A stretch of DNA of 56,502 nt, taken from the NCBI GenBank assembly GCA_025923075.1, contig JAICGN010000017.1:1-56502 (forward strand), given 5' to 3'. The position numbers were made by a program, and so were the translations under genes. Shown here piece after piece: positions 1,467-38,937 of the stretch (position 1 is the first letter of the stretch; every line of letters starts with the position of its first letter). The notes beneath the pieces are model-generated. The model worked only from the letters and a program-made list of their open reading frames with translations, was not told the origin of the DNA and searched no databases. Source of the DNA: Chitinophagaceae bacterium. GTDB lineage: Bacteria; Bacteroidota; Bacteroidia; Chitinophagales; Chitinophagaceae.

Positions 1467-2987
1467 ATGAAAAATATTCTATTGTTTGGTGCCGGCAAAT
1501 CGGCTACGATACTGATCGATTATTTACTTTCCAACGCAGAAAAAGAAGATTGGCAGTTAACCGTGGTGGATGCTGATATCAACCTGGCACAATCCAAAAT
1601 AGGGATCTCTTCTTATGGCAAGGCTGTTTCATTTGATATTAATGATGAAACGGATAGAAAAAGTTTTATCGAGCGGTCAAGCATAGTTATTTCACTTCTC
1701 CCCCCTACTCTTCACACTATAGTAGCCAAAAGCTGTATTGAATCAAACAAGAACTTACTGACTGCATCTTACATCGATGACGAGATCCGAAATCTTCAAT
1801 CGCAAATCCAAAATAAAAGCCTTCTGTTCTTATGTGAGATGGGTCTCGATCCCGGTATCGATCACATGAGTGCAATGAAAATTATTGATAAGATACATGC
1901 CGACGGAGGGAAAATTGTTTCATTTAAGTCACATTGCGGCGGTCTTGTCGCTCCCGAAAGCGATGATAACCCCTGGCATTATAAAATCAGCTGGAACCCG
2001 AGAAATATTTTATTGGCCGGAAAAAGCGGGGCCCATTATCGGGAAAATGCTGAAGAAAAAAGATTGAAGTATGAAGAACTTTTTACAGCCGATCGATTGG
2101 TTGAGATACCCGAAATAGGTTACCTGAGTTGGTATCCAAATCGTGACTCGCTCACCTATGCTCCTCTATATGCTTTGGAAGATGCAAAAACAATTATAAG
2201 AACAACACTACGCCATCCTGATTTTATGTATGGCTGGAAAAATGTGATCGATCTGAAGTTGACAGATGAAACACCACAATATGAGACTAACGGAAAACCA
2301 TTGTTAGATTTTTTTAAGGAGCACATGGAAAAAAATGGATTTAGCGATTGGCTGCAGAAGAAACTTTCAGAACGATTCGATCAAACGAAAGATCTATTGG
2401 AAAAATTGATGGAACTGGTAGAAGCGGAAAAAGAAGCAGAAGCAAGCGGCGGAGATATAGATAAAGATTTCATGGTAGTAGGTAAAGAAGGCGAATTGCA
2501 AAAAATGGATCTTGATAAAATAAAAACTGATGCAGCGGAGATTGTAGCCCATAAAATGCATGAAGCAAATCTTACGCTCAAACAGCTTTTTTTCCTGGGA
2601 ATGGATGATGATGAAACAATAATCAATAAGGGATTTTGCAGCGCAGCAGATGTGATGCAATTTGTGTTAGAGAAAAAACTTGCATTACAGCAGGAGGATA
2701 GAGATATGATCGTTATGCTGCATGAAATTGAATATATAGTCAACGGTCAACAGTCATCAGTTAACAGTTCATTAGTTGTGAAAGGGCAAGATAACCTACG
2801 CACTGCAATGGCAAAAACTGTTGGGTTACCCCTGGGTATTGCTGCCAAACTTATCTTGAACGGAACCATAAAACTCACGGGTTTACATATCCCTACCAAA
2901 AAAGAAATTTATGAACCCGTGCTGAAGGAATTGGAAAGCAACGGAATTAAATTTCATGAAGAAACAAAACAGGTGTATGAAATATAA
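1467..2987 (+). CDS. Saccharopine dehydrogenase family protein
   Basis: 506 residues. The N-terminus ILLFGAGKSA is a Rossmann NAD(P)-binding glycine motif, followed by VVDAD at the end of strand 2, which suits NAD(H) binding. The middle has the saccharopine-dehydrogenase catalytic-domain signature CEMGLDPGIDHMSA and SHCGGLVAPESDDNPW; the C-terminus has SSLVVKG and AMAKTVGLPLGIAAKL. The family interconverts saccharopine with lysine or glutamate/aminoadipate semialdehyde. Bacteroidota homologues are usually annotated saccharopine dehydrogenase C-terminal, but the true substrate is often unproven. The frame overlaps the following cupin gene by 11 bases, so the two are probably co-transcribed. 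An AT-rich sequence TTAATTTGCC about 25 bases upstream resembles a Bacteroidota -7 box. Confidence 0.85.
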   Translation: MKNILLFGAGKSATILIDYLLSNAEKEDWQLTVVDADINLAQSKIGISSYGKAVSFDINDETDRKSFIERSSIVISLLPPTLHTIVAKSCIESNKNLLTASYIDDEIRNLQSQIQNKSLLFLCEMGLDPGIDHMSAMKIIDKIHADGGKIVSFKSHCGGLVAPESDDNPWHYKISWNPRNILLAGKSGAHYRENAEEKRLKYEELFTADRLVEIPEIGYLSWYPNRDSLTYAPLYALEDAKTIIRTTLRHPDFMYGWKNVIDLKLTDETPQYETNGKPLLDFFKEHMEKNGFSDWLQKKLSERFDQTKDLLEKLMELVEAEKEAEASGGDIDKDFMVVGKEGELQKMDLDKIKTDAAEIVAHKMHEANLTLKQLFFLGMDDDETIINKGFCSAADVMQFVLEKKLALQQEDRDMIVMLHEIEYIVNGQQSSVNSSLVVKGQDNLRTAMAKTVGLPLGIAAKLILNGTIKLTGLHIPTKKEIYEPVLKELESNGIKFHEETKQVYEI

Positions 2988-13782: not shown

Positions 13783-13790
13783 ACTGTTAA

Positions 13791-13889
13791 TGATCAATGG
13801 TGAATGGTGAATTTAGAATACCAAAAGCAAATGAGGCTTCAAAAATAAAGTAACCGTTTTTTTGACGATTGACCATTCACCATTGACCA
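13791..13889. repeat. Paired inverted word repeat flanking the folP leader
   Basis: Left arm 13791-13812 and right arm 13868-13889 pair over 22 bases with 20 matches; the shared core reads TCAATGGTGAATGGT. The 55-base loop is AT-rich. It lies between the divergent DUF1599 and folP genes, so a folded transcript could affect either. Confidence 0.8.
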
Positions 13890-13935
13890 CTCACCTTCAC
13901 TATCTTTATCGCCAAAAATAACGAACAAAAAGCGA

Positions 13936-16819: not shown

Positions 16820-16845
16820 AAACGGCTGCGAAGGTAGGGAAATCA

Positions 16846-16935
16846 GTCAATAGTCAGTAGTCGGTAGTCAATAGTCCAGTGTGCTTTTAACAGAACATTC
16901 CTGACTTTGAACTATCGAGTCATGACTGGCAACTT
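16846..16935. repeat. Word-like AGTCAATAGTC repeats upstream of ndk
   Basis: AGTCAATAGTCAGTAGTC-type words (16847-16875) are followed by CTATCGAGTCATGACTGG on the opposite sense (16911-16929). The arms match only partly. It lies between nrnA and ndk, upstream of the ndk -7 box. Confidence 0.6.
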
Positions 16936-24313: not shown

Positions 24314-26284
24314 TCAGTTTACCACTGCTTCTTCCCCGTACAGCTGGTCTTTAAACTTCAATGAAGGAGATGGAATAAATGTTCCAATATTTAAATCATT
24401 CCATTTTGCATCGACAGCTTTTATTGTATCATTATCTGCAACAATGATATTTGGCCAATCGCGATTGAAATCATCATGCTCTTTTGTTTTTCTTGTTCCA
24501 TCAAAACCGATACAAGCTGAGTAGTAGTTCGGAGTTCGGAGTTCGGAGTTCAGCGTCGGTCGTTTATTAATGTGAGAATCCCGTTTCGGATCGAGGTTAT
24601 TGCAGAAACGCCATAAAGCAGTGGGCAGGTCGTTTGCATCAACTGTATGCTCAACATAAAGGATCATCTTCACTCCGGACATTTCTTCTAATGAGTATAC
24701 CTGATCGTGCAACTCTTTTATATGCCCTTTCCGGTTCTTTTTTACAGAAATTATTGCACACGGAATTTCTTTATTTAACAGCGATATGTTTACATGGTGT
24801 ATCTCAGAGAATTTGTCCTTTAATAGCTTTTCACTCAACCCCGAACGCTGAACTCCGAACGCTGAACTTTCATCGGTCTCTTCATCGTATTTGGAAGTTC
24901 CATCAATACACATCTTTCCTCCAAACCCTAACTTGCTGCAACTGTGGTCAAGCACGTCCATCGGTCCCTGTGAAAAATAAATATCTGTTGCAGGGTTTAA
25001 ATTTTTGAAAACATATTTAGCAAGCTGTTCGTAATCCTGAATTTTTATTTCGCCATCAACTAACACAAGAATTTTATTGAACATCATTTGCCCGGCGCCC
25101 CACATTGCATTCATTACTTTTTGTCCCTGGCCGGCATAGTCTTTTTTAATTTTTGCGATCACCAGATTATGAAACACCCCTTCGACCGGCATATCCATAT
25201 CGACTATTTCCGGGATCAATGTCATTTTTATCGGCGCTAAAAAGATCCTTTCAGTTGCTTTGCCCAGCCAGGCATCTTCCTGGGGAGGTATGCCAACGAT
25301 CGTTGCAGGATACACCGGCCTTTTTTTATGTGTGATTGCGGTGATATGAAACCGCGGATACCAATCAGGCAAGGAATAATAACCAGTATGATCTCCAAAA
25401 GGCCCTTCCCAGATCATTTCATCATCAGGGTCAACATAGCCTTCAATAATAAAATCCGCATCGGCAGGCACTTCTATTTCTGGTTGAGAAATGCATTTCA
25501 CCAACTCCACTTTTTTCTTTCTTAAAAACCCTGCAAGCATATATTCATCAACGTTCTCGGGCAAGGGTGCGGTAGCAGCGTATGCATACACGGGATCACC
25601 GCCAAGTGCTACCGCCACCGGCATCCGTTTATTCAGTTTTTTATACTCATTAAAATGTTTGGCTGAAACTTTATGCTTATGCCAATGCATCCCGGTAAGT
25701 GTTTTATCAAACACCTGCATACGATACATCCCGACATTTCTTGTATGGGTGTTGGGATCTTTTGTATGAATAACCGGCAACGTAACAAATGGACCTCCAT
25801 CTTTTGGCCAACACGTAATCACTGGAAGTTTGGTAATATCAGGAGGCCCGCCCCACACCCCTCCCGAAGGAAGGGGCTTTTCGGACATTACGATATCCTG
25901 ACATTCACCTCGTCCACTTTTTACTGCGGGCATCCACGAAGAGAATTGACCCAGCTTAGGAAGCATTTTTAATTTATCCAGTATACCCTCTTTGGGTGCA
26001 GATAATAATTTAAACAAGCCTTCGATTTCTTTTGCCACATCATCAAGCCGCTGAACACCGAGAGCCATGCACATTCTTTTTTCACTGCCATAAGCATTCA
26101 TCAGCACGGGAAAATCATAGCCGGTATTTTCAAATAACAAAGCTTTCCCACCGCCAGGTTGTTTACTCATCCGGTCGGTGATCTCTGCCATTTCCAAGTA
26201 GGGATCAACAAAAGTTTTGATTCGAAGTAATTCCCCTTCTTTTTCTAATGCATCAATAAATTGTTGCTGATTGCGATAGGCCAT
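24314..26284 (-). CDS. ubiD: UbiD-family decarboxylase with in-frame repeat segments
   Basis: 656 residues, longer than usual for UbiD. The family uses prenylated FMN to decarboxylate aromatic or polyprenyl acids; in Bacteroidota it usually serves menaquinone synthesis. Kept motifs: TRNVGMYRMQV with Arg 188, IWEGPFGDHTGYYS with Glu 293 and Asp 298, ATIVGIPPQEDAW, and CIGFDGTRKTKEHD. Three segments look inserted: 135-147 (EKPLPSGGVWGG), 472-484 (SSAFGVQRSG) and 575-588 (PTLNSELRTPN), each encoded by a repetitive DNA motif and each in a likely surface loop between conserved blocks. Its UbiX partner is not in the window. The frame stays open throughout. Confidence 0.88.
   Translation of the reverse strand: MAYRNQQQFIDALEKEGELLRIKTFVDPYLEMAEITDRMSKQPGGGKALLFENTGYDFPVLMNAYGSEKRMCMALGVQRLDDVAKEIEGLFKLLSAPKEGILDKLKMLPKLGQFSSWMPAVKSGRGECQDIVMSEKPLPSGGVWGGPPDITKLPVITCWPKDGGPFVTLPVIHTKDPNTHTRNVGMYRMQVFDKTLTGMHWHKHKVSAKHFNEYKKLNKRMPVAVALGGDPVYAYAATAPLPENVDEYMLAGFLRKKKVELVKCISQPEIEVPADADFIIEGYVDPDDEMIWEGPFGDHTGYYSLPDWYPRFHITAITHKKRPVYPATIVGIPPQEDAWLGKATERIFLAPIKMTLIPEIVDMDMPVEGVFHNLVIAKIKKDYAGQGQKVMNAMWGAGQMMFNKILVLVDGEIKIQDYEQLAKYVFKNLNPATDIYFSQGPMDVLDHSCSKLGFGGKMCIDGTSKYDEETDESSAFGVQRSGLSEKLLKDKFSEIHHVNISLLNKEIPCAIISVKKNRKGHIKELHDQVYSLEEMSGVKMILYVEHTVDANDLPTALWRFCNNLDPKRDSHINKRPTLNSELRTPNYYSACIGFDGTRKTKEHDDFNRDWPNIIVADNDTIKAVDAKWNDLNIGTFIPSPSLKFKDQLYGEEAVVN
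24526..24559. repeat. In-frame AGTTCGG tandem repeat inside ubiD (arm 1)
   Basis: Tandem AGTTCGG words (four units, then AGTTCAGCG). Bases 24542-24555 (TTCGGAGTTCAGCG) are perfectly complementary to 24846-24859, giving an inverted pair inside the gene. Confidence 0.85.
24836..24870. repeat. In-frame AGTTCAGCG repeat inside ubiD (arm 2)
   Basis: On the minus strand reads AGTTCAGCGTTCGG twice. It is the inverted partner of 24526-24559, 277 bases away. Confidence 0.85.
25845..25881. repeat. In-frame CCCCTTCC-type palindromic repeat inside ubiD
   Basis: On the minus strand reads AAGCCCCTTCCTTCGGGAGG and then GGTGTGGGGCGGGCC. It has a hairpin (CCCCTTCC / GGGAGGGG) and is the third repeat-derived stretch in this gene. 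Confidence 0.8.
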
Positions 26285-37420: not shown

Positions 37421-37506
37421 TGTATAAAAATTTAAGGGTTCAGCCCTTGATACTCAATGATAGTGCCATGGGCAGGCATTGTGAAAAATTGGCAGAGAAG
37501 CCTGGA

Positions 37507-37585
37507 AAGTAAAAAGTAAAAAATCAAAAGTCAAAAACGCGGTCCCGTCGGAGTTTTTTGCCTTTTTACTTTTGAATTTTGACTT
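37507..37585. repeat. AAAAGTCAAAA word-type inverted pair upstream of dnaK
   Basis: Arms 37507-37537 and 37555-37585 pair over 31 bases with about 25 matches. The right arm contains CTTTTTACTTTTGA, also found next to copies 2 and 3 of the CCCGATA palindrome, and a copy of that palindrome follows at 37637. Confidence 0.75.
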
Positions 37586-38208: not shown

Positions 38209-38871
38209 ATGGCCAATACCATAGCTCAAAAATTAAGAATAAACCCGGGTGATACACTTTTAACATTGAATGAGCCTTCTGAATTTCAAAAAGGGTTAAA
38301 GGGATTACCCAAAGGTGTCAAAGTGGTTGAAACGGGAAAGGATTATAACCAGGTGCACTGGTTTGTTTTGAACCGTGCGCAAATGGAAAACCAGATGAGC
38401 AAAGTAATGAAACTGGTAAAGCCGGGTATCATTGTTTGGGTGTATTATCCCAAAGGCACATCAAAATTACAAACCGATCTAAACCGCGATAAGGGTTGGG
38501 ATTGTTTACTTGCTGAAGGCGACAAGCTTACATGGATAAATCTGATCTCTTTCGATGACACCTGGAGTGTGTTTGGTTTTCGTGGAAAAACGGACGCCGA
38601 TAAAAAGAAAGAGGCAAAACCAAAACCCGAGCGTGAAATTTTTAAATGGGTGAACCCGCAAACTAAAGAAGTAAAAGTTCCTGATGATCTTGCTACCGCA
38701 TTGAAAAAAAATAAGAAAGCTGCTGAGTTTTTTAATACTCTTTCTTTTACGAATAAAAAGGAATACATAGAATGGATCGTGACTGCTAAGCAGGAATCAA
38801 CAAGAACGGATAGGATCAATGGAACGATTGAACGATTGGGCAAACAATGGAAAAATCCGAGAAACATTTAG
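38209..38871 (+). CDS. YdeI/OmpD-associated family protein
   Basis: 220 residues. The C-terminal half (VPDDLATALKKNKKAAEFFNTLSFTNKKEYIEWI then AKQESTRTDRINGTIERLG) is the OmdA/YdeI module named for OmpD-associated or bacteriocin-protection proteins. The N-terminal part (IAQKLRINPGDTLLTLNEP, and the strand-rich GIIVWVYYPKGTSKLQTDL) resembles the DUF3052-like domain. The mechanism of this group is not known. It is followed by a word-repeat hairpin and the AraC gene. Confidence 0.82.
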   Translation: MANTIAQKLRINPGDTLLTLNEPSEFQKGLKGLPKGVKVVETGKDYNQVHWFVLNRAQMENQMSKVMKLVKPGIIVWVYYPKGTSKLQTDLNRDKGWDCLLAEGDKLTWINLISFDDTWSVFGFRGKTDADKKKEAKPKPEREIFKWVNPQTKEVKVPDDLATALKKNKKAAEFFNTLSFTNKKEYIEWIVTAKQESTRTDRINGTIERLGKQWKNPRNI

Positions 38872-38937
38872 GTGAATGGTCAATGGTGAATTGTGAATAG
38901 GAACAAGCGAATTGACAATTGACCATTCACGATTCAC
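38872..38937. repeat. GTGAATGGTCAATGG word-type hairpin
   Basis: Left arm 38872-38898 and right arm 38911-38937 pair over 27 bases with 23 matches and a 12-base loop. All four mismatches are G against G or C against C, that is, the words GTGAAT and GTCAAT are swapped between arms. It lies between the YdeI-like and AraC genes. Confidence 0.88.

Follow-up and report, generated by a model that had tools for sequence, protein, structure and literature searches.

The two repetitive stretches that lie in frame in a ubiD-family gene of a Chitinophagaceae bacterium belong to a class of short tandem arrays that is common in the Chitinophagaceae and whose unit is 7 bp, or 8 bp in some relatives. The features observed in this class are the arrays and their periods, varied words at fixed sites, a length that hardly varies at several coding sites, inverted partners, placement at stop codons and a strand polarity. 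As an explanation we tentatively favour, giving it nearly an even chance, a replication-error process that would extend, homogenise and fold-back-copy words of 7 or 8 bp largely without changing the length of the sequence.

Two arrays in a ubiD-family gene and their counterparts in relatives

The ubiD-family gene occupies positions 24314-26284 on the minus strand of the window, the whole stretch of 56,502 nucleotides analysed. Its 656-aa product was assigned as a menaquinone biosynthesis decarboxylase from the ORF call, the Pfam domains UbiD_N, UbiD and UbiD_C, and the NCBIfam model TIGR03701, which scored 618.5 bits against a cut-off of 495.9. The first array, in loop 1 (24836-24870, minus strand; residues 473-482, SSAFGVQRSG), consists of AACGCTGAACTCCG repeats and is G-rich on the coding strand; the second, in loop 2 (24526-24559, minus strand; residues 576-586, PTLNSELRTPN), consists of AGTTCGG repeats and is C-rich on the coding strand. 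The sequence confirmed the initial annotation in that both arrays are in frame and mutually inverted, and its view that they leave the frame unbroken is supported. The inverted match itself also stood, but its length of 14 bases (24542-24555 with 24846-24859) did not, because the arm at 24541-24556 on the plus strand, read off the sequence, is perfectly complementary to that at 24845-24860, giving 16 contiguous bases; over the longer 24-nt arms at 24533-24556 and 24845-24868 complementarity is 92%. The 15-mer GTTCGGAGTTCAGCG has exact matches at 24541-24555 (+) and 24846-24860 (-). Because 7 and 3 are coprime, all three frames of a strand read a heptamer array as an identical heptapeptide cycle, so that an array free of stop codons on that strand can be read through in every frame.

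The solved structure with the best match, 2idb, which we take to be E. coli UbiD, aligns to residues 1-472, a second match at 607-633 not being significant, so both arrays belong to a C-terminal region for which 2idb offers no close equivalent. Viewed locally, an AlphaFold model predicts loop 1 as coil before a helix and places loop 2 between two strands, but its mean pLDDT of 47.9 makes it unfit for firm use.

The initial annotation regarded the encoded peptides as extra and raised the absence of these loops from sister species as a check; relatives turned out to possess both loops, filled with different words. These include GAGCTGC and CTCACAA (loci L005 and L094), GATTCAG (L008) and, in L009 and L105, GAGTTCA or GAGTTAT in loop 1 together with the 8-bp word AACCAATC in loop 2. 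Among 83 sequences, period-7 arrays were scored in loop 1 of 21 and in loop 2 of 16. Measured between anchors, loop 1 is 31 aa long in 16 of the 21 array-bearing, 20 of the 36 array-free and 14 of the 26 intermediate sequences, and the peptides are not simply extra. Loop 2 differs in that it tends to be longer in sequences with arrays (10 of 16 have 27 aa) than in those without (31 of 55 have 23 aa); its lengths of 20 and 34 aa are 21-nt steps from 27. In the pair L101 and L106, identity is 88.4% in the core and 91.7% in loop 2 but 49.4% in loop 1; to judge by such sequence comparisons, one loop can differ almost wholly between near relatives while the other loop and the core do not. Loops 1 and 2 are two sites tolerant of change, and since the words of relatives differ at the same places, a process that generates repeats and overwrites tolerant portions of genes is indicated rather than one inserted element. 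In L149, loop 2 holds a GC-rich palindrome where relatives hold heptamers.

The initial annotation also proposed that the two arrays could pair as a long-range stem in the mRNA. The 16 contiguous complementary bases, the 92% match over 24 nt and a weaker match in L094 speak for a functional stem, which is nevertheless scarcely credible when species are compared. Among the 11 species with arrays in both loops, complementarity between own loops averaged 8.5 and that between swapped loops 7.7 (permutation p 0.19), and the only scores to stand out were the window's 20 and the 12 of L094. With this swapped-pair control and arms that do not co-vary, a conserved stem inside ubiD was rejected. The presence of one word in inverted orientation in both loops of this species is a species-level event without demonstrated function.

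Abundance of the arrays and in-frame sites in other genes

In 456 kb of the host genome (G000), made up of the window and 20 stretches of 20 kb, we found 25 period-7 arrays compared with 1 in an order-2 Markov shuffle run once; other periods from 4 to 13 gave 0-4 arrays each, and period 14 gave 13. The 80 ubiD loci, mostly from Chitinophagaceae and totalling 1.19 Mb, contained 98 period-7 arrays against 0 in a single order-3 shuffle, together with 37 arrays of period 8, 60 of period 14, 28 of period 16 and 21 of period 21 (0-5 for the rest), and 31 of these loci carried an array outside ubiD. Density per Mb was 82 in the ubiD loci, 55 in the host genome, 50 in G032 and 43 in G003, so that four of the five Chitinophagaceae samples had 43-82 period-7 arrays per Mb, and the fifth, G027, had 0. 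Twenty stretches from the order's other families gave 12 per Mb (4 arrays in 330 kb), and 50 kb of E. coli gave 0. These genomes are mostly draft or metagenome assemblies, and ORFs were called with a simple longest-ORF script. The excess of heptamers over chance brings the arrays into line with the tandem 7-bp unit of bacterial repeats of the LSSR/STRR type. The cyanobacterial STRR sequences are tandem heptamers with several words, and their likeness to the arrays described here is drawn from these general features.

The words are diverse: 91 canonical consensus words occur among 142 arrays pooled from many species, a count that leaves out L088, which overlaps L094 on one contig (92 words in 144 arrays with it included), and the 25 arrays of the host genome alone show many words. 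Arrays with 8-bp units (e.g. ATTATCAC, AATGTGCT and TTCAGTTA) occur commonly in Pinibacter and the Niastella group, inverted pairs among them, and were seen at L116, L118, L121, L123, L129, L130, L143, L166, L168 and in loop 2 of L105, as well as in L185, from another family. The window also contains a 27-bp tandem repeat at 196-268, with 2.7 copies and 73% matches.

Several other genes of the host genome carry arrays in frame. These include a saccharopine dehydrogenase-family gene (1467-2987, plus strand), in which a GTCAACN array at 2739-2769 (plus strand) leaves the local length as in four array-free orthologues; mutL, in the linker of its product; an IcmF-like methylmalonyl-CoA mutase fusion, with two arrays; and genes for an HMG-CoA-lyase-like enzyme, a DNA polymerase III delta'-type protein, MoeA and adenine deaminase. 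In addition, GTTCGGAGTTCAGCG occurs in frame in a hemW-type gene as an exact 15-mer of ubiD.

At several of these sites the local length is constant or nearly so. The HMG-CoA-lyase-like site measures 39 aa in all 14 aligned orthologues (14 of the 16 loci fetched) and the MoeA site 40 aa in all 7 aligned (of 13 loci). All four array-bearers, which hold two unrelated words, have a second IcmF site of 39 aa, as do 6 of the 9 others (13 of 16 loci). For saccharopine dehydrogenase, where 8 of 30 loci were aligned and shorter, split matches omitted, three array-bearers and four array-free sequences have 51 aa and a fourth array-bearer, with a palindrome, has 56 aa. The hemW site (11 of 30 loci) is 47, 47 and 51 aa long in three array-bearers and 47 aa (three) or 51 aa (four) in the seven lower-scoring sequences, compared with 56 aa in the focal gene, where a palindrome is present. 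Lengths are not constant in the MutL linker (16 of 24 loci), the HolB linker (11 of 16) and the first IcmF site. In three congeners, the HMG-CoA-lyase-like enzymes hold different words in one register, indicating that the repeats changed together.

The constant local lengths and the in-register shift of words in the HMG-CoA-lyase-like enzyme form the main argument for length-neutral rewriting. Insertion or change in copy number also happens, as indicated by the longer ubiD loop 2 and focal hemW and by the varying MutL, HolB and first IcmF sites, and polymerase slippage has been proposed as the cause of heptamers (PMC4679880 and PMC4692102, each telling of an earlier survey). By this explanation, ordinary slippage would insert units of 7 bp, and coding sequences would retain such changes only if they comprise three units (21 nt) or are compensated. 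The 21-nt spacing of the 20-, 27- and 34-aa lengths of loop 2 and the different lengths of the MutL and HolB linkers are what slippage predicts, and in most genomes of the earlier survey (Mrazek 2007), as recounted in PMC4679880, heptamers outnumbered every other kind of long simple repeat. Slippage is nonetheless an unlikely explanation, because one length is found with and without arrays at the HMG-CoA-lyase-like, MoeA and second IcmF sites and at most saccharopine dehydrogenase sites, and because congeners differ wholesale in their words within one register.

Different heptamer words were also seen in the MutL linker of all four fully aligned congeners (L255-L258, the mutL genes of G000, G001, G003 and G002). 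A one-unit slip in the mutL array would shift the frame of a mismatch-repair gene, making it a possible mutator switch. Palindromes of the type CCCGATAGCTATCGGG lie in frame beside or within arrays in L228 (saccharopine dehydrogenase), L195 (hemW) and the L255 linker; those in L228 and L195 are in loci 5-9 aa longer than their orthologues.

Inverted partners and hairpins at the 3′ ends of genes

The initial annotation described intergenic inverted pairs of similar style at two places in the window, and the repeat and partner scan recovered both, at 13786-13895 (arms 13786-13812 and 13861-13895) and at 38870-38937 (arms 38870-38900 and 38911-38937), the latter beginning at the stop codon of ORF 38209-38871. 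A third intergenic pair, AAAAGTC with GACTTTT, lies at 37505-37585 (arms 37505-37537 and 37555-37585), and the intergenic AGTCRRT array at 16842-16878 had no partner detected in the scan. The suggestion that the two ubiD arrays reflect two events of one mechanism is supported, in the sense of one kind of process that also yields intergenic inverted pairs.

Inverted partners are frequent in general. With a score of at least 14 and a distance within 700 bp, 75 of the 181 period-7/8 arrays had one, compared with 5.0 expected from the flanks of other arrays (75 of 183 against 5.2 before the duplicate stretch L088 was dropped), and direct partners numbered 20 against 2.8 expected; by chance, about 1 of 183 arrays would have an inverted match scoring at least 20 at that distance. 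Merging gave 53 inverted pairs, spread over 27 loci and with arms 7-429 nt apart, many of them from Niastella-type loci, and because the species are related these counts are not independent.

The pairs are concentrated at stop codons. An edge lay within 5 nt of a stop codon in 25 of the 50 placed pairs (11.0 expected from random placement in the same gap) and within 5 nt of a start codon in 3 (3.8 expected); for unpaired arrays the corresponding numbers were 12 at stops (3.9 expected) and 8 at starts (4.8 expected). Which arm is G-rich also follows a pattern, the left arm being G-rich in 47 of the 53 pairs, C-rich in 4 and equal in 2, a property of an inverted pair that reads alike on both strands. 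Across the 80 loci the ratio of G-rich to C-rich left arms was 26 to 1 (5 equal) for array-containing inverted repeats and 44 to 23 (13 equal) for the others, so that part of the G-first bias may be general; in the host genome sample the ratios were 3 to 0 and 5 to 5, respectively. On the sense strand of the gene, arrays adjacent to stops were G-rich in 39 of 47 cases, C-rich in 3 and equal in 5, and those adjacent to starts (n=25) were G-rich in 8 and C-rich in 14.

Directly 3′ of ubiD, arms of the same species pair better than arms exchanged between species, with mean scores of 9.84 and 7.20, respectively, over all 77 loci with enough sequence (0 of 20000 permutations). This test is preferred since 15 hairpins had been picked for their pairing, which makes an own-versus-swapped comparison of them partly circular; these are the 15 of 77 loci with arms scoring at least 13, where 0.6 were expected. 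Their words include GTTTGTG or GTTTATG in four lineages, GTTACCG in L130 and an 8-bp word in L143; the hairpin of L138 is not heptameric, and some near relatives have words in common. The hairpins behind ubiD thus stay paired while their words differ between species. The joint change of both arms that marks template-switch hairpins is thus found 3′ of ubiD, and selection for pairing predicts the same. A search of the window and four loci with Rfam at the gathering threshold placed no known RNA family over the arrays and returned only small SRP RNAs. Genes for these RNAs (RF04183) were seen near heptamer arrays at L116:12958-13065, L118:12917-13024 and L130:13120-13227.

Spread of words and origin of the arrays

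The search for further copies of the ubiD word proved productive. With at most one mismatch, GTTCGGAGTTCGGAG has 51 partly overlapping matches in the host genome, 9 in G032, 7 in G001, 0 in G002-G005 and 0-1 in each remaining genome of 59, with 0-2 for a reversed control; close variants occur in ubiD and mutL, and in hemW as GTTCGGAGTTCAGCG. In the 20 stretches the matches form 23 clusters, of which 11 lie inside called ORFs (predicted, at least 70 aa); of the 12 outside them, 9 are no more than 16 nt from a stop codon. GTTCGGA is dispersed in the host genome and not in most congeners, a pattern suggesting that words are copied from one distant locus to another.

This dispersal, together with the strong genome-wide enrichment of inverted pairing, is what recommends the view of the initial annotation that a mobile inverted-pair element had entered ubiD. 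We consider that view very improbable. The same loops of relatives hold different words, the two loops carry unrelated words in most relatives with arrays in both, loop 1 was replaced mostly without a gain in length, and comparison by eye revealed no long common flanks around the 23 clusters, two of which adjoin a TTTTGAC array. An element of the MITE or REP type, which would have a conserved sequence and add length at its target, is likewise not supported by the different words at one site and the mostly unchanged length of loop 1, with flanks compared by eye only. The interpretation given in the initial annotation is thus partly supported.

Ectopic gene conversion or templated repair between distant arrays would also spread words, giving each genome a favourite of its own, and local length would be kept because in genes only in-register replacements would survive. 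The distribution of GTTCGGAGTTCGGAG and its variants in ubiD, mutL and hemW fits this explanation, as does that of AACTCACAACTCACAAC, which at up to one mismatch has 97 matches in G046, a genome from another family of the order with many-copy arrays, 20 in G014 and 0 in the host genome. (A reversed control of AACTCACAACTCACAAC matched 16 times in G037, which may therefore have a word of its own.) On the other side, GAGCTGC, the loop 1 word of G003, has only two overlapping matches in that genome, both within its own ubiD, and across G000, G003 and G032 words from one genome resemble each other no more than they resemble those of the other two (permutation p 0.56). A genome-specific vocabulary was accordingly rejected as a general rule over these three genomes, the label permutation not being significant, and a single word is clearly species-enriched. 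Ectopic copying as the general cause is possible but rather doubtful; local origin and dispersal of words may both occur.

Under the replication-error process that we favour, the seed would be two near-identical words. DNA synthesis transiently misaligned by one unit would copy a word over its neighbour, extending and homogenising the seed while keeping its length, and fold-back template switching would place an inverted copy of the word nearby. Arrays would persist where sequence changes freely, as after stop codons and in protein linkers and loops, and at the 3′ ends of genes G-rich-first inverted pairs would form hairpins, probably kept by selection as mRNA 3′-end structures. The misalignment, the template switching and the function of the hairpins are inferred. 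Constant local length with in-register change of words points to copying over existing sequence, inverted partners point to fold-back copying or to selection on hairpins, and the step of 7 or 8 bp points to a fixed slip size. The idea that a fixed slip size reflects polymerase contact is cited in PMC4692102. Fifteen pairs of near relatives, compared over 149,808 gapless aligned bases, showed 12 copying events at lag 7 and 15-35 at each other lag from 4 to 20. This lack of an excess at lag 7 counts against a general mutation bias outside arrays, and pervasive 7-nt dislocation mutagenesis in ordinary sequence was rejected.

Template-switch mutations are described as creating and maintaining RNA hairpins (PMC8794818); they would account for inverted copies and the joint change of arms but not for the 7-bp tandem period. 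Among the closest known repeats are the G-rich heptamers of Xanthomonas (GGGAATC) and Nostoc (GGGGA(C/T)T), for which PMC4692102 reports about 185 arrays per genome with 70 and 75 close inverted (convergent) pairs, a location closer to the ORF on the 5′ side (28 nt on average) than to the one downstream, 16% of arrays between convergent and 7-8% between divergent ORFs, and variation in length and sequence between two sister species. The arrays described here are similar in their 7-bp unit and in their close inverted pairs near the 3′ ends of genes. In contrast, the Xanthomonas and Nostoc repeats, as PMC4692102 presents them, have one word family per genome and are 89-93% intergenic, whereas here there are 91 words in 142 arrays, many in frame in core enzymes, and congeners differ in their words at one site. 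TAACTGA repeats, from Beggiatoaceae, Cyanobacteria and some Bacteroidetes, resemble ours as direct heptamer repeats, some within ORFs and with other heptamers mixed in (PMC4679880). In the main genome of that study, which concerns one word, they lie mostly just upstream of start codons with one indirect repeat only, unlike the stop codons and inverted pairs found here; our inverted pairs show no enrichment at start codons, and unpaired arrays number 8 there against 4.8 expected. Neither GGGAATC nor TAACTGA occurs among the consensus words of the 144 pooled arrays. Published LSSR/STRR cases, a Calothrix STRR heptamer being mentioned in PMC4692102, have one or a few words per genome, though by no strict definition, and this is not what we found. 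The literature searched, with most subscription journals outside its reach, held no account of such arrays in Chitinophagaceae.

A family whose words vary between congeners, lie in frame in core enzymes and often keep local length offers a natural setting in which to tell slippage, template switching and ectopic copying apart. It is conceivable, though we hold it with reserve, that length-neutral copying of 7- or 8-nt words, intrinsic to the replication or repair enzymes of the Chitinophagaceae, continually turns unconstrained DNA, the loops and linkers of core enzymes (such as MutL, HolB, UbiD and the HMG-CoA-lyase-like enzyme) among it, into lineage-specific heptamers and also produces G-first hairpins behind genes. 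If this is true, repeat rewriting and not independent point mutation would be the source of some of the sequence variety that these bacteria show in their protein loops and 3′ hairpins.
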